From NCBI GenBank assembly GCA_020053015.1, contig JAGVNY010000101.1, forward strand, positions 1-35,935: DNA of 35,935 bases. Reading direction: 5' to 3'. A program made the translations under genes and the position numbers. Below, in pieces: positions 551 to 19,529 of this stretch (position 1 is its first letter; each line of letters begins with the position of its first letter). The notes under the pieces are model-generated. The model was not told where the DNA came from. It was given only the letters and a program-made list of their open reading frames with translations, and made no database searches. The stretch is from Candidatus Zixiibacteriota bacterium (lineage in GTDB: Bacteria; Zixibacteria; MSB-5A5; JAABVY01; JAHJOQ01).

Positions 551-1354
551 TCACACTGAAGCCGCGTTGGCGCTACCGAGGTCACAGAGCTTCCTTTCGA
601 GACTCGGTCTAACCTCTTCTCCGACAACCTCGAATATACGAATTAGGTCTTCGTACGTGCCCGGTCCACCCAGGAAATCCCAGAATCCCCTGCCTACAAG
701 GAAGTCGCTGCCTTGGTCGAAATACCTGAGGCACGTCCATCTCTGATACTCATGAGGGTCGTATGGGTTGTAGTACATACCCAAGAATGTCCGCACTCTC
801 TTTCCCTCCTTGGCTCTCATCGCATATATCTCCAGGAGGTCTCTCTTTGCTGCTCGCATTTCATTCTTGTTGGGTTTTGGTCCTTTTATCTCGAAGTATA
901 TCTCCTCGTCATCATGCGTTTGAAGGAAAAGATCCACGGTATGAATGCGTTCAGCCGATTGATGGTCGTGCTGGCTTGCTTCGAAGATCTGCTCGGCTTC
1001 TCTCGCGTGGTTGGGCGCTGTTATCACGCCATCAAGCTCACTTAGTATCTCATCGAAGACACTCTGAGCCTCGAGCGTTATCTGTCCCCGTAATCTTCCA
1101 CTACCTCGCAGCTTCTTGGAGACGGTGAACGTTGATCTTGCGATGACCTTTGCGATCGTCTCATGCCAGGTTCCGAGAGCCGTTTCACAGCCGTGGATGA
1201 ATCCCTTCACCAGATAGCCCTTCTTGGTGAAAAGGGCATATTGAAATGGTTTCGCAGAGTCCTGGCCATTCAAGCTGTACTTCTCTATTTTCGCCAGAAT
1301 AGAATCTCGCAGCAGGGAATGGATTTCCGCTTCAAGTTCTTTGTTTAGTGCCAT
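551..1354 (-). CDS. TdeIII-like type II restriction endonuclease (copy A, divergent)
   Basis: Probable DNA-cleaving enzyme of the TdeIII family (the prototype cuts GGNCC). The start chosen is the ATG at 1354 (MALNKELEAE), with AGGAAGGAG 8-9 bases upstream; a TTG further upstream lacks this signal. The protein has 267 residues. A PD-(D/E)XK core is visible: D141 in HTVDLFLQ and E155-I-K157 in IYFEIKGPKPNKN. It shares with the neighbouring copy B the blocks YNPYDP...RWT and GFWDFLGGPGTYEDLIRIFE followed by VGEEVRP, so the two are paralogues. It diverges from B throughout the N-terminal half and uses EIK rather than DLK. It lies 69 bp after copy B, on the same strand as the methyltransferase. 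It could be a second specificity, a heterodimer partner, or a decaying duplicate; the intact catalytic residues argue against decay. The recognition site cannot be read from sequence. Confidence 0.78.
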   Translation of the reverse strand: MALNKELEAEIHSLLRDSILAKIEKYSLNGQDSAKPFQYALFTKKGYLVKGFIHGCETALGTWHETIAKVIARSTFTVSKKLRGSGRLRGQITLEAQSVFDEILSELDGVITAPNHAREAEQIFEASQHDHQSAERIHTVDLFLQTHDDEEIYFEIKGPKPNKNEMRAAKRDLLEIYAMRAKEGKRVRTFLGMYYNPYDPHEYQRWTCLRYFDQGSDFLVGRGFWDFLGGPGTYEDLIRIFEVVGEEVRPSLERKLCDLGSANAASV

Positions 1355-1423
1355 CCTGGTACTCCTTCCTGCAACACAAAGCAACGCTCGAGTTCTGAGT
1401 GCGCTGGTCGAGGAACATTTCTG

Positions 1424-2197
1424 CTATGCGAATTCAGCAAAATACTTGTCAATCTCTGGCCTGAGTTCGATGCCAACCCTTTCAAAGCAGTCCAACAACT
1501 CCGAGTACGTTCCGTCCCCACCAAGAAAGTCCCAGAATTCTTCTGCTACCAATAACTCCTCTTCCAAATCCAACATACCTTTCAGAGTCCATCTCTCATA
1601 TGGCTTCGGCTCATAAGGATTATAAGGAATCGCGATATAGGACCGAACATCCGCTGTCGGCTGTTTGAGGAGGTATATGGCAGCCCATTCAAGGAGCGTC
1701 CGTTTGAAATCCTTGAAATTGCTGATGTTTGGTTTTGCGGTTTTCAGGTCAAACAGATAGACTGAACCTCCACCGCTCTTCACCAACAAATCCACCTTTA
1801 CCGTCTTCAGCTTGTGCATTGCTCCCTTTGTGCAAGCACTCCTGATTCTTGCGATCTCATCTATCTTGTTGGGCGTCTTGCCAACGGAGAGGTCGTTCAT
1901 GATCTGCTGTATTTCGGACTGAGCTTGTTCACTTATCGTGTCTCCAACGATGAATTGCTTCCTGGCCTCAACGAACCTAGCCGCTGCCACGGTTTCTGCC
2001 ACAGGTTCGAAGATGGAGGTGCCGAAAGTCGTATTCAGGGAATGTATGAATGAGAAGAGAGCCATCCTGTCATGGCCGAGCAATCGATAGTGAAAAGGCA
2101 TATTGCCGGATTCGGGCTTGTAGCTCTGGAATTTCCGCCTCAGGCTCTCCCTTATGACACCCTGGATCCGCTGAGTCTGATCATGGGTAAAGGACAC
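1424..2197 (-). CDS. TdeIII-family type II restriction endonuclease (copy B)
   Basis: Restriction endonuclease of 257 residues close to the TdeIII family pattern: MPFHYRLLGHDRMALFSFIH, LNTTFGTSIFEPVAETVA, then the catalytic core D136 (KVDLLVK) and D150-L-K152 (VYLFDLKTAKPN). A conserved tail reads YNPYEPKPYERWT...EEFWDFLGGDGTYSELLDCFE...GIELRPEID. The start is GTG at 2197 (MSFTHDQTQR). The methyltransferase stop lies one base upstream, and the ribosome site AAGGAG sits inside the end of the methyltransferase gene, so the pair is almost certainly co-translated. This is the usual arrangement for a cognate restriction-modification pair. Assignment to the TdeIII family is from recalled family patterns; whether this copy cuts GGNCC is not known from the sequence. 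Confidence 0.85.
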   Translation of the reverse strand: MSFTHDQTQRIQGVIRESLRRKFQSYKPESGNMPFHYRLLGHDRMALFSFIHSLNTTFGTSIFEPVAETVAAARFVEARKQFIVGDTISEQAQSEIQQIMNDLSVGKTPNKIDEIARIRSACTKGAMHKLKTVKVDLLVKSGGGSVYLFDLKTAKPNISNFKDFKRTLLEWAAIYLLKQPTADVRSYIAIPYNPYEPKPYERWTLKGMLDLEEELLVAEEFWDFLGGDGTYSELLDCFERVGIELRPEIDKYFAEFA

Positions 2198-2198
2198 A

Positions 2199-3800
2199 TC
2201 ACTTCTCCTTCAGATGGAATATTACCTCTGCATAAGCGGATCTGTCCTTCTCAACCCTATTCAAGACTGGCCGTTTGAAACGATCCGCTATGTTCATCCC
2301 AGCCAGATCGGCGATCCGCGGATAGAGGTCGAATTTGTCATTTGCAACGAGAAGCACATCGTAGTCAGCTGCGAGGAACTTTCTGCAATTCCGGAGTGCG
2401 GCCGCAATTCCTTCAACGTATGAATCCCGCGCTTCCTTTCCTTGTCCCTTGCATAGAGGGCCTATCTCCAAAGCGTCTCTTCTGTCAAACCCGAAGATTT
2501 CATACGCGTAGGCATGTTGCTCGTGATAGTCGATGAGTCCCACGTAGGGCGGACTAGAGAATATGCCCCGAATCTTCTGTTTGATTAATAGTCTGGATAT
2601 CTCTGGATTCTTCCTCTCGGTTTCAGCAAAAAGGTCTATCTTCCTGCTATCCCCAACCAAGCATACTTGACGAGTGTTTGTCCTGAGCTTGTCGAAAACG
2701 CTCAAGCGTTCTATGCTGTCCTGTGCATACCTTTGCCACCAACTCATGATTGAGAAGAGCGGTTTGCAGATCTTCCCATGCTTCTTGCAGTAGTACGTTG
2801 TCGTGACCGGGTTCTTTAGTGTTGCCAAATCAGCGTGTGTGGTAGCCCTGCACGAGCGAATCGTCCTGCTGAGAATGACACCAAGCACTCTCTTGACATC
2901 AGAGTCCCTCATCGTCTTCAGTTGTTCGAAAAGAAAATCAATCTCCTCTCTCACTGGTTGCAGAAACCACTTCCCCAAGAACGTATCACTTGCATCCTGA
3001 GTGATGCGGATTCTGTGCTGCCGAACCAATGCCTTATAGGTGGCGAGAAACTCTCTCTCCTTTTCGCTGGCGTACACTCTTTCGTCGACCGCACCCGTGA
3101 GAACCCTTCTCTTGTACTCTGGGGAAGGGAAGTGTTTCTGGTTGAAGGTCGCGAGTTCGGCAAGCAGGTGTTCCTCAAAAAGCATGTTGGATCTGGACTT
3201 CTGGAATTCGTGCAAGTGTTTTGTCATAATTGCAGAAGCTTTCGCAATGTCCGGCAACGAGTGCTTGCTGACCTTTACGTTGCTGATTATCGCATTGAAG
3301 GCCGAGATGTCGACTCCGATGCAGTAGAGACCCAGTTCATTTGCCTCTACAAGAGTAGTGCCGCTGCCGCAAAAGGGATCTAGAACAATGTCGCCTTTGG
3401 AGAAGTATATGCGTTTCTTGAACTCATCAGTGTGAGTGTCCAAGAAATACTCCACTAACTGAGGAATGAACTTCCCCTTATACGGATGCAACCTGTGAAC
3501 ATGCTTGGTTCTCTCGGACTCTTTATACTCCACAAATGACAAACGCCAGTTAAGGTCGTCACCGAGCAAGTCCTTCCACCGTTTCTCCTTGTCATAGGAA
3601 TCGTAGTACTGCTTCAACTCCAGTGTGCTGATCAAGAGGCTACCATTGTCCCCGTGTCTCTTCAGCCTTCCGTATTGAACGAGATATGAAAGATTCGAAA
3701 TCGTCACCTGCCGGCCAAGATACTGAGATGCCCATTCGCTGGCTTCTCTAAGACCGACCAGCTCACCTTCCCTTACCCGAAGCGATCTTTGCTGACTCAT
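2199..3800 (-). CDS. DNA methyltransferase (N4-cytosine/N6-adenine type) of the TdeIII-like system
   Basis: Site-specific DNA methyltransferase, 533 residues. SAM-binding motif I DPFCGSGTT is at 141-149, followed by the acidic motif in YCIGVDIS. Catalytic motif IV, SSPPYVG, lies far downstream at about 415-421. This order, with some 260 residues between the motifs that could form the target-recognition region, resembles the alpha class. SPPY points to amino methylation (m4C or m6A), not C5. The first 70 residues look like a helix-turn-helix domain (LREASEWASQYLGRQVTISN), which might bind target DNA or the operon's own promoter. It is translationally linked to endonuclease B. It would protect host DNA from B and perhaps also from A, since no other methyltransferase adjoins A. 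Confidence 0.88.
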   Translation of the reverse strand: MSQQRSLRVREGELVGLREASEWASQYLGRQVTISNLSYLVQYGRLKRHGDNGSLLISTLELKQYYDSYDKEKRWKDLLGDDLNWRLSFVEYKESERTKHVHRLHPYKGKFIPQLVEYFLDTHTDEFKKRIYFSKGDIVLDPFCGSGTTLVEANELGLYCIGVDISAFNAIISNVKVSKHSLPDIAKASAIMTKHLHEFQKSRSNMLFEEHLLAELATFNQKHFPSPEYKRRVLTGAVDERVYASEKEREFLATYKALVRQHRIRITQDASDTFLGKWFLQPVREEIDFLFEQLKTMRDSDVKRVLGVILSRTIRSCRATTHADLATLKNPVTTTYYCKKHGKICKPLFSIMSWWQRYAQDSIERLSVFDKLRTNTRQVCLVGDSRKIDLFAETERKNPEISRLLIKQKIRGIFSSPPYVGLIDYHEQHAYAYEIFGFDRRDALEIGPLCKGQGKEARDSYVEGIAAALRNCRKFLAADYDVLLVANDKFDLYPRIADLAGMNIADRFKRPVLNRVEKDRSAYAEVIFHLKEK

Positions 3801-4036
3801 GCTTATGTGCCTCTTACTTCAGCTCATGCCGATCATAAGCCCAAACTTGCAGATACTAACACAGACGATCTTGTCAGACGGCAACATTTGGCCACACATA
3901 CAATCATTGCTGGGTTAGAAACCCGACTCAAGATATCCAGCCTCTTTCCCAACATCAATCACATTTTGGCCAGCCCACGACGATTGTGTGTCAGAACATA
4001 GCACCAATGCCACGGTCCGGACTTCCGTCTCGCTGA

Positions 4037-4645
4037 TCAAGAGTCAAGATCATTGACCAGCCCAGAAATGTCTACTGTGACGCCTTCTTTTGTCTTCTCA
4101 TAATACACAACTTTCCCCTCGATTGTCTCGTGCAAGGACTCCTTCAGTCTGTACGACTCTGGTTTGATGCTGATGGGAGTATCGCCCACGTAGCCGTCGA
4201 TACCTCTAGATTCCTCAGATGGTTCAGCAAGGCGGTAGGTTGTGTCGAGCATGGCAACCACCTTTGCCAGGATAGCCTCCTGGCACCTAAGACCGATGAA
4301 TGTCTTGATAATAACCATATCCCTAACCCAGCGTTCAATCAGTTGTCTATCTATCTTGTCCATCACCGACCGGAAATTATCAATCATGAGTGCTATCTTT
4401 ACAGTGGCCTTCGGAATCGCGTCTGGGTTCTTCTCCAAGTACCATTTCTCCCATTCCTCTATCGATTTCCCCAGGAACTCCTGAATCAGTTCGCTCATCT
4501 GCCCAACAACTGCAGGGCGCGTGCCCTGAGCATTCTGGTTCGCCAAGTTCAGGATTTGGGTAGAGTACTTAGGAAAGTCAAATGACTTGATTCCGAGAAG
4601 GTCTTGTATCTCACGATTGGTGAGTTTGAGTCTCTTCGTTCGCAC
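4037..4645 (-). CDS. MjaI-family type II restriction endonuclease
   Basis: Restriction endonuclease of the MjaI family (the prototype cuts CTAG), about 202 residues. Family blocks are unmistakable: LTNREIQDLLGIKSFDFPKY, ANQNAQGTRPAVVGQMSELI, EEWEKWYLEKNPDAI, KTFIGLRCQEAIL and the presumed active-site segment GIDGYVGDTPISIKPESYR. The GTG at 4645 (MRTKRLKLTN), with GGGA upstream, places the start just before the conserved LTN block and leaves a 35-base overlap with the methyltransferase gene. A TTG at 4666 and an ATG at 4720 would overlap more and add unconserved residues. The overlapping gene order (methyltransferase then endonuclease) allows modification before cutting. CTAG specificity is inferred from the family and not visible directly. 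Confidence 0.9.
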   Translation of the reverse strand: MRTKRLKLTNREIQDLLGIKSFDFPKYSTQILNLANQNAQGTRPAVVGQMSELIQEFLGKSIEEWEKWYLEKNPDAIPKATVKIALMIDNFRSVMDKIDRQLIERWVRDMVIIKTFIGLRCQEAILAKVVAMLDTTYRLAEPSEESRGIDGYVGDTPISIKPESYRLKESLHETIEGKVVYYEKTKEGVTVDISGLVNDLDS

Positions 4646-6023
4646 GGGAGTTTCCCATATCTGCAAGCGTCTTGAACTTGGTCTCGTATTTGAATGGATA
4701 CTCAGTGTCAAGGTCGGCAAAACCGAGCTTTAGCAGATGAGCGTTGACAAATGTTCTGTTCTTCAAGTAGAGATATGCCATGAGACGATCGTTCTTGTCG
4801 TACTTAGTTGAGTCAAACCTGAGAAACACCTGTCGCTTCAGTATCTTGTTGTTCAGAAAAGTGATGGAGGCTTCGTGCTGGGATGGCCTGGGTCTTACAC
4901 CGGTTAGTCTGACAGTAAGACCGTCGGCTAGTTTGACAAGGTTTGTATCGAGGACTTGCGCCACCGAGTGATAACTGAACCGCGATGTCTTCACGCCTTC
5001 GTCAGCCGCGCTGATTCTCGATCCAAACATCAACTTGTTAGGATCGACTTTCTTGTCGAATTTCACCGGATCGGAGAAAATGTATGGTAATTGCTTGAGG
5101 TCGGCTTTCCAATCCAGAGAGTGTGGATGTTGCTCCTTGACGATGATCTCTGCATTTCCGAACAGAGGGTCTCTCCTCTCACCCAATTTCTGCTCAATGA
5201 CTGGGCGAAACTCCTTGTTGATTTCGTAGCCTATCGAGTTCCTCCCCGTGAGCATGGCCGCAAGTGACGTGGTGCCGCTTCCGAGAAAAGGATCCAGCAC
5301 CGTTTCGCCCGCAAACGTGAACATCTCAATAGCGCGCTTTGGCAATTCGACCGGGAACATGGCAATATGGTGATCCTGCCTGACTCCATTGAAATACCAA
5401 TGGCCTTTGAAGTATTCCTTCCATCTCTCCTTTGGAATTACGGACAGCTTCTTCTGTGATCCATCGACTTTCGGCCCCATACCCGGTTTCTTGAAGATCA
5501 GGATGAATTCATAGTCAATCTCTATGATCCCGTTCCTCGGATACGGGAACGAGCCCATTACAGTCGCGCCGCCGGTCGTGTTCATAGTCGTCTTCTTCTG
5601 CCAAATAATCGCACCCATGTAATCGAGACCAACAGTCTCGCAGAACCTGATGATCTCGGTGCGTATCGGAACGACTTTGTATCTGCCGTAGTAGACTGCG
5701 CGCGCGAATTGATCGCCGATATTGATGAGCATTCTACAGCCCGGATGCAGAACCCTAACACACTCAGCCCAGACCAAGTTCAAGTTGTTGATGTAGTCCT
5801 CATAGGAATCATTGAAGCCAATCTGGTCCTGTACTCCGTAGTCCTTGAGCTGCCAGTAAGGAGGCGATGTGACGATGAGATGCACAGATGACGACGGAAC
5901 TTCAGTCATCTTTCGGGAGTCACCCATTAGGCACACGTGTCGTGTTCCCATTAGAAAGTCGCTCTCTTCGCGAATAATTGCATCCCTTATCGCCTCTGCA
6001 GTCGAGTGATTTACCTCTGACAA
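4611..6023 (-). CDS. N4-cytosine DNA methyltransferase (M.MjaI type) fused to a staphylococcal-nuclease-like domain
   Basis: Modification enzyme of the MjaI-type system, 470 residues. Catalytic motif TSPPYW is at 52-57 and SAM motif DPFLGSGTT at 244-252, the beta-class order typical of m4C enzymes such as those for CTAG. After the methyltransferase (to about 300) comes a second module, about 357-455: VRLTGVRPRPSQHEASITFL, DRLMAYLYLKNRTFVN and HLLKLGFADLD match the strand-strand-helix pattern of SNase/Tudor-SN folds. The Asp-Thr that binds calcium in active SNase appears replaced by RPRP, so it is probably a DNA-binding or structural domain. The first open start is TTG at 6023 with a poor ribosome site. 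An ATG at 5951 (MGTRHVCLMGDS) fits the family start equally well. Confidence 0.88.
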   Translation of the reverse strand: MSEVNHSTAEAIRDAIIREESDFLMGTRHVCLMGDSRKMTEVPSSSVHLIVTSPPYWQLKDYGVQDQIGFNDSYEDYINNLNLVWAECVRVLHPGCRMLINIGDQFARAVYYGRYKVVPIRTEIIRFCETVGLDYMGAIIWQKKTTMNTTGGATVMGSFPYPRNGIIEIDYEFILIFKKPGMGPKVDGSQKKLSVIPKERWKEYFKGHWYFNGVRQDHHIAMFPVELPKRAIEMFTFAGETVLDPFLGSGTTSLAAMLTGRNSIGYEINKEFRPVIEQKLGERRDPLFGNAEIIVKEQHPHSLDWKADLKQLPYIFSDPVKFDKKVDPNKLMFGSRISAADEGVKTSRFSYHSVAQVLDTNLVKLADGLTVRLTGVRPRPSQHEASITFLNNKILKRQVFLRFDSTKYDKNDRLMAYLYLKNRTFVNAHLLKLGFADLDTEYPFKYETKFKTLADMGNSRANEETQTHQS

Positions 6024-6866: not shown

Positions 6867-8228
6867 CTACACCAGTGCCGCCCTGAAAGCCTCAGAGAGT
6901 CGAGACACAGGCACGACTTCCACACCCGTCTTCATTGCAGCTTCTCGTGCGCCGCGTTCGGGTACGACTATTCGAGTGAATCCGAGTCCAACAGCCTCTT
7001 TGGTTCGCACGTCGAGTCTTGGCACCGATCTGATCTCGCCTCCCAGTCCGACTTCGCCAATGACCACGGTGTCATCGCGCACGGGCGTATCGTGGTAGCT
7101 TGATACGATAGCACAGACCAGACCGAGATCGATCGCAGGTTCATCGATGCGAAGTCCACCGGCGAGGTTGACAAAAACGTCCTTCGATGAAACGTGCAGT
7201 CCTTCCTTCTTCTCAAGGATAGCAAGCAGCAAGCTTAGCCGCTTCTGATCGAATCCCGATGCTACTCTCTGCGGAACGCCGTAGGTAGCCTCGGCGACTA
7301 GCGCTTGAAGCTCGAACAGAATCGGGCGAATCCCCTCGATCGAACACACAATCACTTGACCGGAGATTCCGCTGGTGCGTTCGGAGAGGAACAACTCTGA
7401 AGGATTCGCGACCGGTTCCAGTCCTCGCTCTCCGATAGTGAATATGCCGATCTCAGATGTCGACCCGAAGCGATTCTTCTCTGCGCGCAGAATCCTGTAG
7501 AGATGATTCTTCTCGCCTTCGAAATGCAGAACTACGTCGACCATGTGTTCGAGCACCTTCGGTCCGGCAATCGCGCCTTCTTTGGTGATGTGTCCGATGA
7601 GAAGCAGAGCGATCTTACTCGCCGCGCACGTGTCCTGAAGAGCAGCTACGCATTCGCGTATCTGCGTGACAGTGCCAGGAGAGGACTCGAATTCACGTGA
7701 CCGAAGAGTCTGGATCGAATCTACAATAACAAAGCGATGCGACCCACCGTCCACCAACTCCTTTATCTCCTCCAAATCGGTTGTGGTTGCAACATCGATT
7801 CCCTCAGACGCTATCCCAAGTCGATCTGATCGGTTCCTGATCTGTTCGGGCGACTCCTCGCCAGAGACATAAAGCGATGGATGATCGCGCTCGGTGAACT
7901 TGCCTGCAACCTGAAGCAGAAGTGTAGATTTGCCGATCCCCGGATCGCCTCCAAGCAACACTGATGATCCGGCCACGATTCCGCCGCCGATGACCCGGTC
8001 GAATTCCTCCATACCTGTTGGAATCCTGAATTCAAGAGAGGTGTCGATCTTCCCGAGTGGAACCGCGGCGGCAGCTCTGCGATCGCCGGTGCCCTTGCTC
8101 GACTGTTTCTTGGAGACTCGCTCCTCGACGATCGTATTCCATTCGCCACAATGCTGACATTTGCCCGACCACTTCGATTGAACAGCTCCGCACGACTGGC
8201 AGACGAATATGGTTTTGTCAGAGGACAT
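6867..8228 (-). CDS. radA: DNA repair protein RadA/Sms
   Basis: RadA is a RecA-related ATPase and branch-migration helicase that helps process recombination intermediates. The 453-residue length is normal. The N-terminal C4 zinc finger has C10, C13, C24 and C27 (CQSCGAV...CQHCGEW). Walker A GGDPGIGKS is at 93-101, Walker B lies around FVIVDSIQT, and the RadA-specific KNRFG is at 251-255. The C-terminal third is the Lon-like domain (DVFVNLAGGLRIDEPAIDLG). The start is an ATG right before SSDKTIFVCQ. It is separated from mlaF upstream by a 312-bp gap filled with a structured repeat, so it is probably transcribed on its own. Confidence 0.97.
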   Translation of the reverse strand: MSSDKTIFVCQSCGAVQSKWSGKCQHCGEWNTIVEERVSKKQSSKGTGDRRAAAAVPLGKIDTSLEFRIPTGMEEFDRVIGGGIVAGSSVLLGGDPGIGKSTLLLQVAGKFTERDHPSLYVSGEESPEQIRNRSDRLGIASEGIDVATTTDLEEIKELVDGGSHRFVIVDSIQTLRSREFESSPGTVTQIRECVAALQDTCAASKIALLLIGHITKEGAIAGPKVLEHMVDVVLHFEGEKNHLYRILRAEKNRFGSTSEIGIFTIGERGLEPVANPSELFLSERTSGISGQVIVCSIEGIRPILFELQALVAEATYGVPQRVASGFDQKRLSLLLAILEKKEGLHVSSKDVFVNLAGGLRIDEPAIDLGLVCAIVSSYHDTPVRDDTVVIGEVGLGGEIRSVPRLDVRTKEAVGLGFTRIVVPERGAREAAMKTGVEVVPVSRLSEAFRAALV

Positions 8229-11720: not shown

Positions 11721-13172
11721 GTGCAAGACGCCTCTACCGAAATCCGGTTGCAGAAGTCTCCGGTTACCGCAGATGAGTCCACAGGCTGCGGCGTGTCTGA
11801 GAAGCAGTCTGACTGCAGCGTACTGTTCGTCAATTGGTACGTCGAAGACGACTCGATCCCAAGAGCAGACCTGTTTGACGGCTTCGAGCTGCAAATAGCA
11901 GCGGGGAATATCGTCTTTTTCGATCCGCTCGGGTTTGCCGCGGCCAACGGCATGCGCAGAAACAGCAGCGACATAGCGGAAGCCGAATACCAATCCATCA
12001 GCGAATCAGACTTCCGGCGTTATCTGGCAGGAGTCAAGCGAGCGACTCAGTTGTTCCAGAGCTTGCTCGACGGCGGTGGAATCCTTGTGCTCCGATCTCA
12101 GTTCCCGAACACTCAGCTGCGTATCAGAAAGAAAAGCTCTGTCGGAACCCAAACGTATACAGAATCTGTCGTTTCCCCGTTCTTCTGGATGGAGGACTTT
12201 CTCGGCAAGTTTTCGTTCCCTTACGCAAGCAAGAGCACGATAGAATTTGTCGACAGACACAATCCGCTCAGGAAGCTCCTCGGTCACGCACCTGTCAATT
12301 GCCTCCAGACTTTGAATACGATCGGAAAGGGCGAGATCGAAATCATCGCGACCACAGCATCCGCGCCGAAATCGCCTGCGATAGCCAAAATAAGCCCGGA
12401 GAACTCTCGCGGTCAAATCTACATTATCCCACAGTTCCTCGTTCGCAGGGAGCATGCCATTCTCGTCGACGCATTCAAGTCAATACTACTCAACAAGTCC
12501 TTCGGGATGGCCAAGCCAGCCTGGCTCGATGACTTCGCAGAGCGACTCGGCATCATCAATCCGTACAGGGCGAAGCTTGAAGAACTTGGCAAACAAATCG
12601 ACAAGCTCGAGCAAGAGCGCGACGAATTGCTGCAGAAGCTCGAGGAGACAATGCGACTTGTCGACCTGCTGGTCGAAACGGGAGAAGATTTGCAGTCAGC
12701 AGCTCGCGTGGGGCTCGAAACGGTCGGGTTCGACTGCTCGGAGAATGCTCCCGGAAGGCAGTCGAATAGCATTTTGGTTGTGGACAAGGGAAATGTGATA
12801 AGGCGGGCAATAGTCAGAATTGCTGCCAACGACTCTGGTCCGATACGAGTGCAGGAGATTCGAGAGCTTCAACAGGCCATAGATTCGAGCAATCTCAAGA
12901 ACAAGCCCAAAGGCATACTGATAGGCAACGCATCGCGGATGACCCCGCCAAAGGATAGACAGATTTGGTTCGATATGGAGTGCCAGACCGAAGCCAAACA
13001 GAGCGACATTTGCCTGATTCCCTCGTTCGAGTTCTACGCAGCCGCATGCTTCTGCCTTGCCAAAGCCGAATCGGACATCTACGACACGGTTAGATCGGCT
13101 GTGCGACGCGACATAATGGAGTGCGACGCAGTGTTCCAACTGAATCGCAAGCGATTTGGCGTCCGCATCTGA
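11721..13172 (+). CDS. Uncharacterised coiled-coil protein with a possible degenerate nuclease-like C-terminal domain
   Basis: I do not recognise the whole protein (483 residues, GTG start with GAGGAG just upstream). Residues 30-260 form an unassigned alpha/beta region with no signal peptide. Residues about 282-318 are charged and heptad-like (LEELGKQIDKLEQERDELLQ), a clear coiled coil. Residues about 322-440 (AARVGLETVGFDC, IRVQEIRELQQAI, KPKGILIGNASRMTPPKDR) follow the layout of archaeal and bacterial restriction-like domains in which a helix precedes an E-x-K strand and a final GILVGN strand. Here the strand that should carry the acidic-x-Lys pair reads RRAIVRIAAND, so catalysis is unlikely. 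It heads a five-gene plus-strand run. It could be a sensor or scaffold that keeps a nucleotide- or DNA-binding fold. Confidence 0.6.
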   Translation: MQDASTEIRLQKSPVTADESTGCGVSEKQSDCSVLFVNWYVEDDSIPRADLFDGFELQIAAGNIVFFDPLGFAAANGMRRNSSDIAEAEYQSISESDFRRYLAGVKRATQLFQSLLDGGGILVLRSQFPNTQLRIRKKSSVGTQTYTESVVSPFFWMEDFLGKFSFPYASKSTIEFVDRHNPLRKLLGHAPVNCLQTLNTIGKGEIEIIATTASAPKSPAIAKISPENSRGQIYIIPQFLVRREHAILVDAFKSILLNKSFGMAKPAWLDDFAERLGIINPYRAKLEELGKQIDKLEQERDELLQKLEETMRLVDLLVETGEDLQSAARVGLETVGFDCSENAPGRQSNSILVVDKGNVIRRAIVRIAANDSGPIRVQEIRELQQAIDSSNLKNKPKGILIGNASRMTPPKDRQIWFDMECQTEAKQSDICLIPSFEFYAAACFCLAKAESDIYDTVRSAVRRDIMECDAVFQLNRKRFGVRI

Positions 13173-13251
13173 CACGGGCGGATGACGCCAATCACTTCCG
13201 AGTACATTCCGCACTTGACCACCCACGCTGCAATTGCTTATCAATGTTCTC

Positions 13252-14073
13252 ATGATCGACGATTTCACTGAGTCAAATCGCGAGCTCTGGAACAAGCTGA
13301 CACCAGTCAACGCCGCCTCTCGATTCTATGATCTTGACGGGTTTCTCAATGGCGACTGCTCGTTGCAGCCTATCGAACTTGAGGAAGTCGGATCGGTCGC
13401 CGGCAAGAGTCTCCTTCATCTGCAGTGCCATTTTGGCATGGACACGCTGTCATGGGGTCGACTAGGCGCCAGAGTCACGGGGGTCGACTTCTCAGAAGAG
13501 GCTATTTCGCTCGCATATTCGCTCGCCGACAAATTGTCAATGAACACTGAGTTCATTTGCTCGGACATCTACGACTTGCGGAGCCGGCTGTCCGGTGAAT
13601 TCGACATTGTATTCACATCCGCTGGTGTGCTCTGCTGGCTGCAAGACATCCCTCGCTGGGCAGAAATAGCCGCGAGCTTCGTGAAACCGGGAGGGTTCCT
13701 TTACGTTCGTGAATTCCATCCATTTGCGTACATGTTCGACGACACGAACAACTCGCCCGTTCCAGTTCTTCGCCACCCCTACTTCCCGGCCGAGCAGCCA
13801 CTTCGATTCGAGGACCAAGGGAGTTATGCGAATCCTGAATCCGACATAAGAACTGTCAGTTATGAATGGTCCCACAGCCTTGCGGAGATTACCTGCGCTT
13901 TGATCGATGCGGGATTGACAATCGAGTTTCTGCATGAATTCCCGTTCAGCACTTATCCATCGCATCCCTTTCTTGAGAAGGCAGAAGACGGATCGTGGCA
14001 ATATGACAAGATCGATGGTGGTCTCCCGCTCATGTTCTCAATACGGGCGAGAAAGCGTTTACGGTCGAGATGA
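13252..14073 (+). CDS. Class I SAM-dependent methyltransferase
   Basis: Small-molecule or unassigned-substrate methyltransferase of about 273 residues. Motif I is unusual in form (LHLQCHFGMDTLSWGRLGA, about 55-73), followed by the acidic motif-II residue D79 in VTGVDFSEEA and post-motif segments FDIVFTSAGVLCWLQDI and VKPGGFLYVREFHPF. The ATG at 13252 (MIDDFTESNRELWNKL) is preferred to the TTG at 13234. LQCHFGMDTLSW with EFHP is a recurring subfamily signature among stand-alone methyltransferases. Its stop overlaps the start of the serine hydrolase gene (ATGA), so the two are co-translated; no substrate link is evident. Confidence 0.88.
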   Translation: MIDDFTESNRELWNKLTPVNAASRFYDLDGFLNGDCSLQPIELEEVGSVAGKSLLHLQCHFGMDTLSWGRLGARVTGVDFSEEAISLAYSLADKLSMNTEFICSDIYDLRSRLSGEFDIVFTSAGVLCWLQDIPRWAEIAASFVKPGGFLYVREFHPFAYMFDDTNNSPVPVLRHPYFPAEQPLRFEDQGSYANPESDIRTVSYEWSHSLAEITCALIDAGLTIEFLHEFPFSTYPSHPFLEKAEDGSWQYDKIDGGLPLMFSIRARKRLRSR

Positions 14074-15788
14074 CAAAAGGTGAGGTTCTTCAAAGGGTAG
14101 TTGCGCGCTCAATCAGAAACATCCTCCTCTGGCAGCTGACAATTCTGGCTGTGTGCCCAATCTCATCAGGGCGCTCACTGGTCGAGCAAAAGCTCGACGA
14201 ATACCTTGTCGCAGCTACAAACGTCTGGAGATTCCAGGGAGCGGTGCTGGTGGCGAAAGAAGGCAAGGTCATTCTGAGAAGAGGCTACGGCATGGCCAAC
14301 AGAGAGGTCGGAGTATCCAACACGCCAGAGACGAAATTCTTCATCGGATCGATTACAAAACAATTCACTGCGGCCGCGATTCTGCTTCTACAACAGGATG
14401 GTCTGCTGAATGTCATGGACCCCATTAGCATGCATCTTCCAGATTACCCGGGTGATGCAGGCTCGCGAATCAAGCTCCATCACCTGCTCACTCACACATC
14501 GGGGATCCCGGACTACACCCAGACACCGTCGGTTATGCTTAAGCGCACGACAGCGCTGTCGCAGACCGATCTTCTCAGGATATTCGATCAGCAACCTCTC
14601 GAGTATGAGCCCGGTACTCAGTTCCACTACAGCAATTCGGGATACATTGTGCTCGGTGCGATCATTGAGCGCGTTTCAGGGCAATCCTACGAAGCGTTTC
14701 TCCATCACAGACTGCTGAAGCCACTGAAGATGCTCAACAGCGGCTATGCACGGCGAGAGATGGGGCTTCCGGATCGTGCCGACGGCTACACGCTCAATGA
14801 CGACCAGGGACTGATCAGGGCGCCACAGGTCGATCCGCCGTTGCTGCACTCAGCCGGAGCCCTGTACTCCACCGTGGACGATATGCTGCTGTGGGACAAG
14901 GCGCTCCGGGATCATAGCATTCTGGATAAGAAATACATTGAGGTTATGCTCGCTCCGTATACCGGATTCTACGGATACGGGTGGTTCATAGAGACACTGT
15001 ACGGACGTCGGCACACATTTCATGGCGGCTATCTCGATGGATTCAACACCACCTTTGACCGTTGGATCGATGACAACCTTTGCATAGTAGTGTTCAGCAA
15101 CGAAGATGAGGCGCCAGTCAAGAAGATTGCCAAAAATCTCGCAGCCATCATATTCGGGGAGCCTTACAATATCCCACAAATGAGGGTTGCTGCTGAGGCA
15201 GACTCTCTTCTGATTTCGGAATACACTGGAGTCTACGGAAAAGGAGTCGAGTCTCACGTAGTCTATACTCGCGACAAGTTTCTATTCGACAGACCTTATA
15301 ACGAGCCTGCTCGCAAGCTGCTTCCCTTCGCCGCGGATTCCTTCTTCGTGGAAACGGACAACACGATCACGCTGCTGTTTACAAGAGACGAAATGGAAAC
15401 AGTGGTCGGATGCGTTTTGGACGACGATGGAATGGGTGCATGTCTCGGCAAGCTCATCGGTCCTCAGGCAGACAGCATTTGGGTATACAGGCGCGCCATT
15501 GCCCTTGATCCGGATATCCTTGGTGGTTACGTTGGCAAATACAGGCTTGAAACGGGTGTGGAAGGTCTGGACTCAACTTTCTATGTCGAGATAGCGCTTC
15601 AACGAAACGGGCTGTCGGTTATCATAGGCGAGGGAGAAGCTGTGGATGTATTCCCATATACGCAGTCAGAGTTTTTCAACTACTCGGCCGATTTCCTCAT
15701 GCAATTCATTGCCGACAGCGCTGGTTCCGTCACTGCATGCAGACTGGAGCTTTCCGGTGCATCGGTGACGGCTTTCAAATTGAAATGA
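14070..15788 (+). CDS. Exported serine hydrolase, class C beta-lactamase/DD-peptidase fold
   Basis: Penicillin-binding-protein-like serine hydrolase of 572 residues. All three active-site motifs are present: S94-I-T-K97 (nucleophile and base), Y187-S-N189 and H318-G-G320. Supporting blocks are HHLLTHTSGIPDY, PGTQFHYSNSGYIVLGAIIE and SAGALYSTVDDMLLW. A hydrophobic stretch at about 18-32 suggests a signal peptide or anchor, so it should act in the periplasm; a VC pair at its end is a poor lipobox. Residues about 350-572 form a C-terminal beta-rich region common in family members. Substrates in this family include peptidoglycan peptides, D-amino-acid peptides and esters; none can be chosen here. 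Confidence 0.92.
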   Translation: MTKGEVLQRVVARSIRNILLWQLTILAVCPISSGRSLVEQKLDEYLVAATNVWRFQGAVLVAKEGKVILRRGYGMANREVGVSNTPETKFFIGSITKQFTAAAILLLQQDGLLNVMDPISMHLPDYPGDAGSRIKLHHLLTHTSGIPDYTQTPSVMLKRTTALSQTDLLRIFDQQPLEYEPGTQFHYSNSGYIVLGAIIERVSGQSYEAFLHHRLLKPLKMLNSGYARREMGLPDRADGYTLNDDQGLIRAPQVDPPLLHSAGALYSTVDDMLLWDKALRDHSILDKKYIEVMLAPYTGFYGYGWFIETLYGRRHTFHGGYLDGFNTTFDRWIDDNLCIVVFSNEDEAPVKKIAKNLAAIIFGEPYNIPQMRVAAEADSLLISEYTGVYGKGVESHVVYTRDKFLFDRPYNEPARKLLPFAADSFFVETDNTITLLFTRDEMETVVGCVLDDDGMGACLGKLIGPQADSIWVYRRAIALDPDILGGYVGKYRLETGVEGLDSTFYVEIALQRNGLSVIIGEGEAVDVFPYTQSEFFNYSADFLMQFIADSAGSVTACRLELSGASVTAFKLK

Positions 15789-15812
15789 TTCACACGGCAA
15801 AGGTCTGTGGTC

Positions 15813-16286
15813 ATGAACTGGGTTGACATGCTGGCTGAGTTTGCCTCAGAAGTGAGGGAGTCAAGCCTCAAACGGCTGCGAGCTGTTCCCATCGGGTTCG
15901 AGAACTGGCGCGTTCATCCCGACTCCATGAGCTTCGCAGACACCGCGAAGCACCTGATCGACTGCGATGAATGGCTCTTTGACAGGCTCGCCGGATCAAA
16001 CCCAGAGCCATTGCGGGGCCTGTCTGGATGCACTCACATAGCCGATAGACGGTCGTATGACAACCTGCTCGAAAACCTGGACTGCGTCGGACAGAGACGC
16101 CGCGATGCTATTTCGCGTCTCGACGACTCAGCGCTTTCCAGACTCGTACTCGACACACGCTTCGGCCGCGAAGTGACTGTGTGGTGGGTCATTGTGCGAG
16201 GCAACCTCGATCACGAAATACACCACAGAGGCCAGATCGCAGCTTGGCTGAGGATCATCCAAACCGGTGAGGGAAATAAGCAATGA
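15813..16286 (+). CDS. DinB-fold metal-binding protein
   Basis: Four-helix-bundle protein of the DinB/YfiT superfamily, about 157 residues. A three-histidine metal site is visible: H47 (DTAKHLIDCDEW) and H134 and H138 in the last helix (NLDHEIHHRGQIAAWLR). Members are thiol-dependent transferases or hydrolases, often in detoxification; the substrate is unknown. The ATG at 15813 has AAAGG 9 bases upstream; a GTG at 15807 is possible. The stop overlaps the next gene by ATGA, continuing the compact operon. Confidence 0.88.
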   Translation: MNWVDMLAEFASEVRESSLKRLRAVPIGFENWRVHPDSMSFADTAKHLIDCDEWLFDRLAGSNPEPLRGLSGCTHIADRRSYDNLLENLDCVGQRRRDAISRLDDSALSRLVLDTRFGREVTVWWVIVRGNLDHEIHHRGQIAAWLRIIQTGEGNKQ

Positions 16287-17797
16287 GAATCCGAACGACC
16301 ATAGGCAGATTGCTCAGTGCTTCGCATACCGAGATCATGTCAATCGTGCTTTTATCGCAATTGCTTCTTCCGTTCACAGCCAATCAAGCTTCGGCACACG
16401 AGCGCCGGAATGTGATTGTCGATACTGACGTCGCACTCGACGATGTTCGGGCCATCCTTCTGCTGTTGCGAGCCAGCCAATTCGAAGTGGTCGGAATTGT
16501 CACATCAGACGGAGCCTGTTCACCTCAGATCGGCGCGAGGAACGTGCAGTGTGTGCTGAGTCCGGTCGGAAGAGACGACATTCCGATTGGGTACGGAGAT
16601 ACTCTCGGCCAACCGGCTCCTCCCTGGCGTCCGATGTCGGAAGCGCTCGGCTGGGCTGGGATTCAGCCCGCTCGAAGCGATGACTCCATTTCACTCGCAC
16701 TTGATCTGCTGGCGCGGCTGCTGACGTCATCTGGAGAAAGAGTCACATACGTTTGCCTCGGACCAATGACGAACTTAGCAAGTCTGATCGAAGCCGACAC
16801 CGCAGCCTCTGAGTTGATATCGGAGGTCTGGTACTCCGGAACGCTCGTCGATCAGGCGAGTGAATCATGGAACACACTGCGAGATACTGCTGCCGCGCGA
16901 GCGGTATACAGATCCGCATTAACTGTGCGAGCAATCGAGCTACCGGATTCGGAACTGATTAGATTTGACAGCTCAATGTTCGAACACATTGCAGATATGG
17001 AAACCGAATCTGCACGGTTGATCACGAAATTGCATTCCGGCGAAAGAACCGGGATGCTCGTCCGAAACGGTCATTTTCGCGCCTGTGATGAGTCTGTAGT
17101 GCTGGGCATGATTGAGCCATCACTCATCTCGTTTCGAAGAGCAGACCCGTTACTCCCGCACTTCGAGTCAACGGGCTTCAACTCGGACTCCGGTCGCGCT
17201 TTGTATCTAACTATCCTGTCCCAAGGAGTCGACAACATGCTTTCACCAAGGAACCCTACGGTGCTTGACCACTTTCCGGCAGATCCAAGTGAGCTGCAAG
17301 GAGATATCAAGCCTTTCGTGACAGATATTATCGCAAGATATGGCCGAGAAGAATGGAACTGCGCAATACTGACCAACGAGTTTCATCAGCATCTCGGCAT
17401 CTACTCAATTGTCGGTGTGAAGATGGGTATTATAGCAAGGGAGTTGCTCCGCGCCGATCATGGAAGCCTAAGAGTCGTAAGCCATGCAGGTTCGGTACCG
17501 CCAATGAGCTGCCTCAACGACGGACTGCAGGTCTCGACGGGAGCAAGCCTTGGACACGGAGCAATCAGAGTCGTCGAAGATTCAACTCGCGTTGAGGCTG
17601 AATTTAGTAGCAACAACAGATCGTTGAGACTGAAGCTGAACGACGATGTAGTTGCACGGATCAGATCAGACATCCGGGATGCGATCGCCAAATATGGAGA
17701 TCTCACGCCCGAGTACTTCGCCGAAGTAAGAAGGCTGGCTCTGCAATACTGGCTCGAACTGGACAGAGCGACAATCTTCGAGGAGCGAACGGAGTAG
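16283..17797 (+). CDS. Exported nucleoside-hydrolase-like protein fused to an FmdE-like domain
   Basis: Two-module protein of 504 residues. After a signal-peptide-like N-terminus (hydrophobic about 19-34, ending near QASAHE), residues 43-340 match inosine/uridine-preferring nucleoside hydrolases: calcium-site motif D47-T-D49...D53-D54, VVGIVTSDGA, GARNVQCVL, IGYGDTL, YVCLGPMTNLASLI and LSQGVDNM. The usual DTDPGxDD is here DTDVALDD. Residues about 364-460 resemble the FmdE family (formylmethanofuran dehydrogenase subunit E-like): NEFHQHLGIYSIVGVKMGI, then PPMSCLNDGLQVSTGASLGH. The first HGH element reads HQH. It would cleave N-glycosidic bonds of nucleosides or analogues in the periplasm. The fused domain may bind a metal or pterin-like ligand; this is inference. 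Last gene of the plus-strand cluster. Confidence 0.8.
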   Translation: MRIRTTIGRLLSASHTEIMSIVLLSQLLLPFTANQASAHERRNVIVDTDVALDDVRAILLLLRASQFEVVGIVTSDGACSPQIGARNVQCVLSPVGRDDIPIGYGDTLGQPAPPWRPMSEALGWAGIQPARSDDSISLALDLLARLLTSSGERVTYVCLGPMTNLASLIEADTAASELISEVWYSGTLVDQASESWNTLRDTAAARAVYRSALTVRAIELPDSELIRFDSSMFEHIADMETESARLITKLHSGERTGMLVRNGHFRACDESVVLGMIEPSLISFRRADPLLPHFESTGFNSDSGRALYLTILSQGVDNMLSPRNPTVLDHFPADPSELQGDIKPFVTDIIARYGREEWNCAILTNEFHQHLGIYSIVGVKMGIIARELLRADHGSLRVVSHAGSVPPMSCLNDGLQVSTGASLGHGAIRVVEDSTRVEAEFSSNNRSLRLKLNDDVVARIRSDIRDAIAKYGDLTPEYFAEVRRLALQYWLELDRATIFEERTE

Positions 17798-17894: not shown

Positions 17895-19529
17895 TCACCA
17901 CTTCGAAACGACTTCACCGAAGCACTCAAGACCGCTTCTTATGACCGCGCTGTATCCGCCGCCGGGTCTTGTCCAAGCTCCCGCAAGATACAAGTTCTCT
18001 ATCGGCGTGGAATGAGGCAAACGACGCAGGCCGGAATTGTCCACCGTCTGGTCGAATCCGTAGATCGCACCACGGTAATTGCCTGTGTATCGCACATTCG
18101 TTAATGGAGTTCCTATCTCTTTGACTTCTATGGCATCCATCAAACCGGGCAAGAGAGCTTTCTCGGCCCGCCTGATCAAGATGTCTGCCATGCGCTCTTT
18201 CTCCTTGCGATACGCATCCTTCTTGCCGTTCAGGTAGTCGCTCTCGTATGGCAACCAGTGGTCATACCCCTGCAGCGCCATTACCGTCACTGTGTTCTTT
18301 CCCTCCGGCGAATAGCCTTTGTAAACATTATCATAGAGAGTTACTCCAAGCCCGCAATTCTCGACATCGGCTGCCAGGCAGGCCGCGTAATCCGCCTCGA
18401 CATCATATCCCTCGCCGATGAAGATCTCCGTATCGCGGAGATCAAGCTTGCCGACGAGGTCTAACTTCAGGCCGAGGAAAACCTGGAATGAGGAAAGACT
18501 GACGCTCAATTGATCGAGCTTAGCAAGATACTCCTGAACGATCTCCTTCTCGTCGGTCAGCGTTCGAATAGTGTCGAAAGCGTTCGCGTTTGAAATGACA
18601 GCTCGGCATCGGATTTCCTCACCACCATGAACGCGAACTCCAACGGCCTTGTGATCCTCCGTCAGGATCTTCTCGACTTTCGTCTTGAGCATGACCCTGC
18701 CCCCTCGATCGGTGATGAACTTGACCAGGGCATCGCTGATCTTTTGAGACTTACCTCTCGGGTAGTATGATCCGCCCTCCAGAAAGCCAATCGTCGGAAG
18801 CGCATAGTAGAAGCTGGAGAGCTTCGATGGCGGGAGACCGTAGTAACCCCACAGGCAGGAAACAAGCGCCACGAGTTTGGGGTCTCTGATGTGCATCGCG
18901 ACAAGCTCGCCCCATGTGATTCTGTAACATTTGAAAAGCGTGGGGAATTCGAACGGAAACGTGTTCATTTCGAACTTGCCTCCGGCGCTCGACAGCTTGC
19001 CGATATCGGCAGCGAGTCCCTTCATGTCTGCAAACAGGCTGTCAATGCCCGCCTTCTCGGACGGGAAGTAACCGGACAGAAGGTCGGTGTAGGCCGCAAC
19101 GTCCTTCTGGGGCACGCGAAAATCATAGTCGGGGAAGATCGCCCTGTACAAATGAGGATGCGCTACGAATTCTACCTCTTGTATTTCCGGGAATCCTGGA
19201 AGCAAATTAATCAGACCGTTGCGCTCACCGGCCGAAGTGGCATGTAACGAGGCATCGAAGACGAATCCTCCGGGCCGGGCAAACGTGGTTGCATATCCGC
19301 CCGGCTTGTCGTGCTTCTCAATCACGAGTGGTCTCAAACCCTGACGCGCGAATGCCCCGGCACAACTCAACCCGCCGAGTCCCGAACCGATTACTATCGC
19401 GTCATAGCCGCCGCCCTTGTCATCTGAAGCTACCGCCTTGCCGATGACACTCCAATCCAGTACGGCAAGACCGAGCCCCGACAGAATCGCTCCTATGAAG
19501 TCTCTTCGATCAACATGGCTTCCTTCCAT
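17895..19529 (-). CDS. Tat-exported FAD-dependent oxidoreductase, phytoene desaturase/retinol saturase type
   Basis: Flavoprotein of 544 residues in the CrtI/all-trans-retinol saturase superfamily. The N-terminus carries a twin-arginine signal (DRRDFIGAILSGLGLAV), so the folded, FAD-loaded enzyme is probably exported. The Rossmann motif is VIGSGLGGLSCAGAFARQG, followed by VIEKHDKPGGYATTF. Substrate-domain segments follow, and the C-terminal FAD-closing motif reads NLYLAGAWTRPGGGYSAVI. ATG at 19529 has GGGAG 5 bases upstream. Hydrogenation, desaturation or isomerisation of a lipid-soluble polyene or quinone-like substrate is plausible; no carotenoid genes are nearby. Convergent with the nucleoside hydrolase-like gene; 221 bp downstream of baiN. 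Confidence 0.87.
   Translation of the reverse strand: MEGSHVDRRDFIGAILSGLGLAVLDWSVIGKAVASDDKGGGYDAIVIGSGLGGLSCAGAFARQGLRPLVIEKHDKPGGYATTFARPGGFVFDASLHATSAGERNGLINLLPGFPEIQEVEFVAHPHLYRAIFPDYDFRVPQKDVAAYTDLLSGYFPSEKAGIDSLFADMKGLAADIGKLSSAGGKFEMNTFPFEFPTLFKCYRITWGELVAMHIRDPKLVALVSCLWGYYGLPPSKLSSFYYALPTIGFLEGGSYYPRGKSQKISDALVKFITDRGGRVMLKTKVEKILTEDHKAVGVRVHGGEEIRCRAVISNANAFDTIRTLTDEKEIVQEYLAKLDQLSVSLSSFQVFLGLKLDLVGKLDLRDTEIFIGEGYDVEADYAACLAADVENCGLGVTLYDNVYKGYSPEGKNTVTVMALQGYDHWLPYESDYLNGKKDAYRKEKERMADILIRRAEKALLPGLMDAIEVKEIGTPLTNVRYTGNYRGAIYGFDQTVDNSGLRRLPHSTPIENLYLAGAWTRPGGGYSAVIRSGLECFGEVVSKW

Follow-up and report, generated by a model that had tools for sequence, protein, structure and literature searches.

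The 35,935-nt stretch of Zixibacteria DNA analyzed here (the window) carries a gene that joins a nucleoside-hydrolase-fold domain to an FmdE domain, and the same fusion is found in genomes of two phyla. The hydrolase-fold domain keeps its Ca2+ site but has lost residues of the sugar and leaving-group pocket, and the FmdE domain keeps three of the four FmdE metal-ligand residues. Our preferred reading, to which we assign a probability of roughly 0.4 with the mechanism proposed below included, is that the protein may act in the periplasm as an accessory in the uptake of a transition metal, with nickel the likeliest, or of a metal-organic complex.

Domain architecture, fold, and distribution of the fusion

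The fusion gene lies on the forward strand at 16283..17797 and encodes 504 amino acids; its ATG is at 16283, preceded by a ribosome-binding-like AGGG, and its stop codon ends at 17797. Based on Pfam, residues 44-286 (16412..17140, +) are an IU_nuc_hydro domain (PF01156; 97.5 bits, E=1.5e-27) and residues 367-499 (17381..17779, +) are an FmdE core domain (PF02663; 52.6 bits, E=6.2e-14), both above the curated cut-offs of 34.2 and 22.9 bits, respectively. The first-pass annotation, made from the sequence, had proposed this pairing at exactly these coordinates, and the search of the C-terminal part that it suggested indeed returned FmdE (52.6 bits, E=6e-14). Its description of the hydrolase domain as complete holds for the catalytic part and fails for the whole profile, of which positions 1-254 of 297 are matched; the FmdE similarity was likewise borne out, over about 133 residues instead of the 100 or so first estimated. 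The zinc-finger tail is absent from the window fusion's FmdE core domain.

The predicted structure agrees with these assignments. In Foldseek, an AlphaFold2 model of the whole fusion (mean pLDDT 83) matched RihA and nucleoside hydrolases from plants and trypanosomatids, with E-values down to 6e-15 (RihA 3g5i, 6e-15). The FmdE part was modeled at pLDDT 92 and matched the solved FmdE structures 2gvi and 2glz (E=1e-8 to 3e-7; 2gvi 1e-8). When the FmdE part alone was searched against solved structures, matches were at chance level, and it was the fold comparison that settled the FmdE identity. Similarity of the window sequence to HcgF was weak (E=0.17) and was taken as chance.

A survey across genomes, also called for at first pass, found the fusion in 14 genomes of two phyla. 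An assembly artefact is ruled out as its source because the fusion recurs in 13 genomes besides that of the window. The copies fall into group 1 (window, G081, G082, G133, G142, and G138) and group 2 (G144, G145, G147, G152-G155, and G159). Over the whole protein, the copies from G081 and G082, which belong to the same phylum as the window, are 44 and 42% identical to the window copy. Among the genomes of these two phyla that have any nucleoside-hydrolase domain, 14 of 16 have it solely as the fusion: 11 of 12 in the phylum of G133 (Krumholzibacteriia; Fisher p=4e-6) and three of four in Zixibacteria (Fisher p=1e-3). The fusion is carried by 11 of 80 genomes of the Krumholzibacteriia phylum. 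Compared with seven stand-alone domains, the fused hydrolase domains form a single clade (support 100/99); the fused FmdE domains also cluster in the FmdE tree, on a weak branch (72/62; L024 is counted there as fusion L061, the same gene). A contig scan of the genome collection with the single window protein gave no further fusion, and a scan with an alignment of three fusions recovered a Krumholzibacteriia copy. The plasmids searched yielded stand-alone hydrolases and no FmdE match.

Residues 1-38 (16283..16396, +) resemble a signal peptide, as proposed at first pass. By eye, from the sequence and alignment, the leader consists of a hydrophobic stretch at about residues 18-35 followed by A36-S37-A38 and then H39, with low pLDDT (27-40). 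This suggests that the window fusion is probably exported, to the periplasm. A His is found at the leader end, which would be the mature N-terminus, in all six group 1 members.

Altered hydrolase domain and putative FmdE metal site

We compared 13 alignable fusions with seven stand-alone hydrolases, taking the roles of N39, N160, E166, and N168 to be those in the Crithidia enzyme structures. Kept in all 13 (window numbering) are D47, D49, D53, and D54 of the Ca2+/catalytic Asp fingerprint DxDxxxDD (DTDVALDD, residues 47-54; 16421..16444, +), N197 of W196-N197 (16868..16873, +), which corresponds to the ribose-binding N168, and D269, the last Ca2+ Asp, in H264-FRA-C268-D269-E270 (17072..17092, +). 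Lost in all 13 are N39, the N160 loop (deleted just upstream of W196-N197), E166, and the His of the HGxDG loop, at whose site the fusions have a PPWR-type motif. The conserved Asn of the G-N motif (N39) is replaced by A, S, or V after the Gly; in the window, this is D76-G77-A78 (16508..16516, +), where the acidic residue before G77 is a gain of the fusions. The leaving-group His before the last Asp (H241) is lost in 12 of 13 fusions, being Cys in the window and mostly Trp, Phe, or Tyr elsewhere, and the nearly invariant His264 is gained.

Because the residues for base activation and the 5' side that characterize group I (loop His, N39, N160, E166, and H241) are lost, we call the domain hydrolase-fold rather than a group I nucleoside hydrolase. 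Since the sugar and leaving-group pocket is changed in every fused copy, its substrate is likely to be a non-standard one. The first-pass proposal of an undescribed activity on a modified nucleoside, cofactor, or pterin thus stands as far as an unusual substrate goes, and finds no support for a pterin or Mo-cofactor. Altogether, the sequence supports either an altered substrate or a binding role for the domain and does not choose between the two.

The roles of the DxDxxxDD fingerprint, the last Asp, and both His residues have been described for nucleoside hydrolases, among which are NH-fold proteins that are inactive though their Ca2+ site is kept: XopQ, an ADP-ribose binder without leaving-group activation, and the multidomain Sde_0182 (PMC8910321). 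By this precedent, and given that the loop His and N160/E166 are missing from all fusions and the His before the last Asp from 12 of 13, the domain might have ceased to be an enzyme and instead be a module that binds ribofuranose in a Ca2+-dependent manner; the fusion would then serve in the periplasm to bind or chaperone a metal or a ribosylated compound. We consider this somewhat unlikely: the DxDxxxDD fingerprint is invariant throughout, including D53, which corresponds to Asp14, and some active hydrolases do without that His, having Trp in group II and Cys in group III, as do the S. solfataricus enzymes (PMC8910321). The window, with its Cys, resembles group III at this position (PMC8910321).

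It is improbable that the fusion is an exported nucleoside-salvage hydrolase acting on ordinary substrates, with FmdE merely dimerizing or stabilizing it. A Pfam score far over the cut-off, the kept catalytic Asp, a leader-like N-terminus, and pyrimidine and purine hydrolases as the nearest solved structures would all fit such an enzyme, but the 5'-side and base-activation residues are lost in all fusions, the gene contexts are those of metal or TonB uptake and not of nucleoside transport, and the FmdE residues that would bind metal do not vary.

The core Zn/Ni site of FmdE is formed by His15, His17, Cys19, and Cys55 (PMC2954224). Three of these four ligands are invariant in the aligned fusions: His15 and His17 are H368 and H370 of the window motif H368-Q-H370-L-G372 (17384..17398, +), and Cys55 is C410 of C410-LN-D413-GL-Q416 (17510..17530, +), which also holds the Asp58/Gln61 motif. 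At the Cys19 position, stand-alone FmdE proteins of the same phyla with a recognizable motif have Cys, whereas the fusions all have Gly. One solved FmdE member is also without two of the ligands (PMC2954224). In group 2 fusions, the FmdE domain is preceded by a His-containing linker.

The first-pass annotation also held that FmdE proteins are usually linked to one-carbon or molybdopterin enzymes. This view was mistaken: of 208 PF02663 genes, only 13 are next to formylmethanofuran dehydrogenase genes, and the majority have genes for metal-ion transporters as neighbors (PMC2954224). We recognized no formylmethanofuran dehydrogenase (fmd/fwd) genes in the window or in the stretches read beside other fusions. 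Judged by eye, the genes near stand-alone FmdE genes of these phyla encode TauE-like permeases, a CDF-like transporter, or, beside an RND pump, a His-rich permease. One stand-alone FmdE (locus L065, 5586-9206) has a leader-like N-terminus and is flanked on one side by a His-rich protein and on the other by an EamA-like permease whose tail is very rich in His, with an RND metal-pump-like gene nearby; this setting suggests a role of FmdE in metal handling. One genome has two FmdE genes about 2.1 kb apart (L068, 7768-8358 and 10498-11109), with a CRP-like regulator and a TauE-like permease between or beside them.

Gene neighborhoods and a possible role in metal uptake

In the window, the fusion closes a tight cluster on the forward strand, following genes for a SAM methyltransferase (13234-14073), a beta-lactamase-family hydrolase (14070-15788), and a DinB_2-superfamily protein (15807..16286). 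The cluster includes two 4-nt overlaps, one of which (ATGA) joins the DinB_2-superfamily gene to the start of the fusion, and these two genes are probably co-transcribed. The DinB_2-superfamily gene is absent beside other fusions, and none of the window cluster's neighbors is conserved there.

Several other genes of the window were noted. Convergent with the fusion is a gene for an FAD oxidoreductase of the carotenoid isomerase/CrtI kind (17895-19529, -) with an RRDFIG twin-arginine-like leader. A 483-aa protein with a coiled-coil-like stretch (11721-13172, +) has no Pfam match above cut-off and no PADLOC match. PADLOC also identified a type II restriction-modification cluster (554-6023, -), in which two restriction-enzyme matches of one family lie side by side (554-1384 and 1427-2197), with type II methyltransferases at 2202-3800 and 4614-6023.

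Our metal-uptake reading draws on the relatives of the window copy, whose contexts point to uptake of nickel or another transition metal. In G082, the gene order is NikR, CbiM, NikL, CbiQ, CbiO, and fusion, the fusion starting at most 20 nt from the end of CbiO; the G081 contig begins inside the operon, at NikL, and matches this order from there. The fusion thus ends a nickel/cobalt ECF operon in these two genomes, both from a single Zixibacteria genus (g57), the one genus with this link. A NikR-operator-like palindrome with three mismatches precedes NikR in G082 and is no better than chance there.

TonB receptor genes adjoin six of the 14 fusions. The receptor gene of G142 starts within the fusion stop (ATGA), and five group 2 genomes, of which three are closely related, have a divergent receptor gene beside the fusion (loci L050, L052, L054, L055, and L056). 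G147 has a 58% identical TonB receptor elsewhere in its genome. Counted by lineage, the fusion is associated once with a nickel operon and about four times with TonB receptors. Near group 2 fusions (L051, L053, L054, and L055), we also observed a glycosyltransferase (PMT_2-TPR), a universal-stress protein, and often a sodium:sulfate/citrate-type symporter.

Among solved structures, BtuB is the best relative of the neighboring TonB receptor. The cargo could therefore be a corrinoid or another nucleotide-bearing cofactor instead of free nickel, imported via TonB and stripped of its ribosyl or adenosyl part by the fusion, and a pocket without the 5' residues would suit a 5'-substituted ribosyl group. 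We regard this as quite improbable: the similarity to BtuB is weak (E about 1e-16) within a promiscuous superfamily, the colicin I receptor comes close to it in score, and the g57 operon is linked to NikR, i.e. to nickel.

Other observations count against the metal-uptake reading, beginning with the window copy itself. No metal transporter adjoins it, and the window contains neither a TonB receptor gene nor a NikR operator, although the same genome (G000) encodes a NikR-CbiM-(105 aa)-CbiQ-CbiO operon on another contig (C158; locus L049, 6971-9983) behind a perfect NikR-type palindrome (6990-7017). The perfect GTGCTAC-N14-GTAGCAC before this operon is the one such site in the whole genome, where sites with two mismatches are no commoner than in the control. 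The window fusion is thus not part of the NikR-regulated nickel transporter operon, and because operon and site lie elsewhere in the genome, its own link to metal is by homology only. The nickel-operon link comes from one genus, and CbiM is not enriched in genomes with the fusion (7/11 vs 30/69, p=0.33). We recognized no transport gene next to the fusion in G138 and no nickel transport gene next to that in G133. In the FmdE site, all fusions have Gly in place of Cys19, and with BtuB as the receptor's best solved relative, a corrinoid or yet another compound could be the cargo.

Metal uptake by the fusion, as we envisage it, would have four steps. In lineages with a receptor beside the gene, a TonB receptor would carry the metal or complex across the outer membrane. 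The FmdE core would then hold the metal via His368, His370, and Cys410, with additional ligands possibly provided by the His-containing linker in group 2 and perhaps by the mature N-terminal His in group 1. The hydrolase domain, whose pocket is open on the 5' side and changed where the leaving group would sit, would use its Ca2+ site to hold a ribosyl group by the 2',3'-diol, and the ligand might be cleaved or simply retained as the metal is freed. Finally, the metal would pass to an inner-membrane importer, of the nickel ECF type where present. The domains, the fold, the kept and lost residues, the clade, and the gene neighborhoods are direct observations, and export, metal binding, the substrate, and this order of events are what we infer. 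A more specific version, in which the fusion would be an undescribed periplasmic glycosidase for processing metallophores or cofactors, cleaving a nucleotide-like metal ligand at its ribosyl bond as FmdE takes over the metal for delivery to the importer, appears rather unlikely.

Comparison with known systems

The function of the NH-FmdE fusion is probably previously undescribed. Among the papers searched, FmdE and nucleoside hydrolase occur together in none, and likewise none has FmdE with TonB or nucleoside hydrolase with NikR. The fusion ties FmdE to a ribosyl-binding enzyme fold in a protein that appears to be exported, with relatives beside nickel importers and TonB receptors, which makes a role in metal acquisition directly testable on a single recombinant protein. 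It bears on FmdE function outside methanogens and would add a case of a nucleoside-hydrolase fold repurposed away from nucleoside salvage.

The fusions resemble IU nucleoside hydrolases (PF01156; RihA, C. fasciculata IU-NH) in fold, DxDxxxDD, last Ca2+ Asp, and ribose-binding Asn168, but differ in their leader peptide, C-terminal FmdE domain, separate single clade, and loss of N39, the N160 loop, E166, the loop His, and, in 12 of 13, the leaving-group His. With the FmdE family (2glz, Dhaf_2992; 2gvi, TA1109), they share the alpha+beta core fold, the HxH and Cys/Asp/Gln motifs, and, in relatives, metal-transport neighborhoods; unlike these, they are predicted to be exported, are fused, and have Gly for Cys19. 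The nickel ECF operons under NikR (NikM/CbiM, NikL, CbiQ, CbiO) include the fusion as last gene in G081 and G082, but it is not a described subunit, and the window copy is on a different contig from its NikR operon. The inactive NH-fold proteins XopQ and Sde_0182 share the kept Ca2+ site, but they are without an FmdE domain and have other partners and settings. The NH-FmdE fusion combines known parts in a new arrangement and does not amount to a new kind of system.
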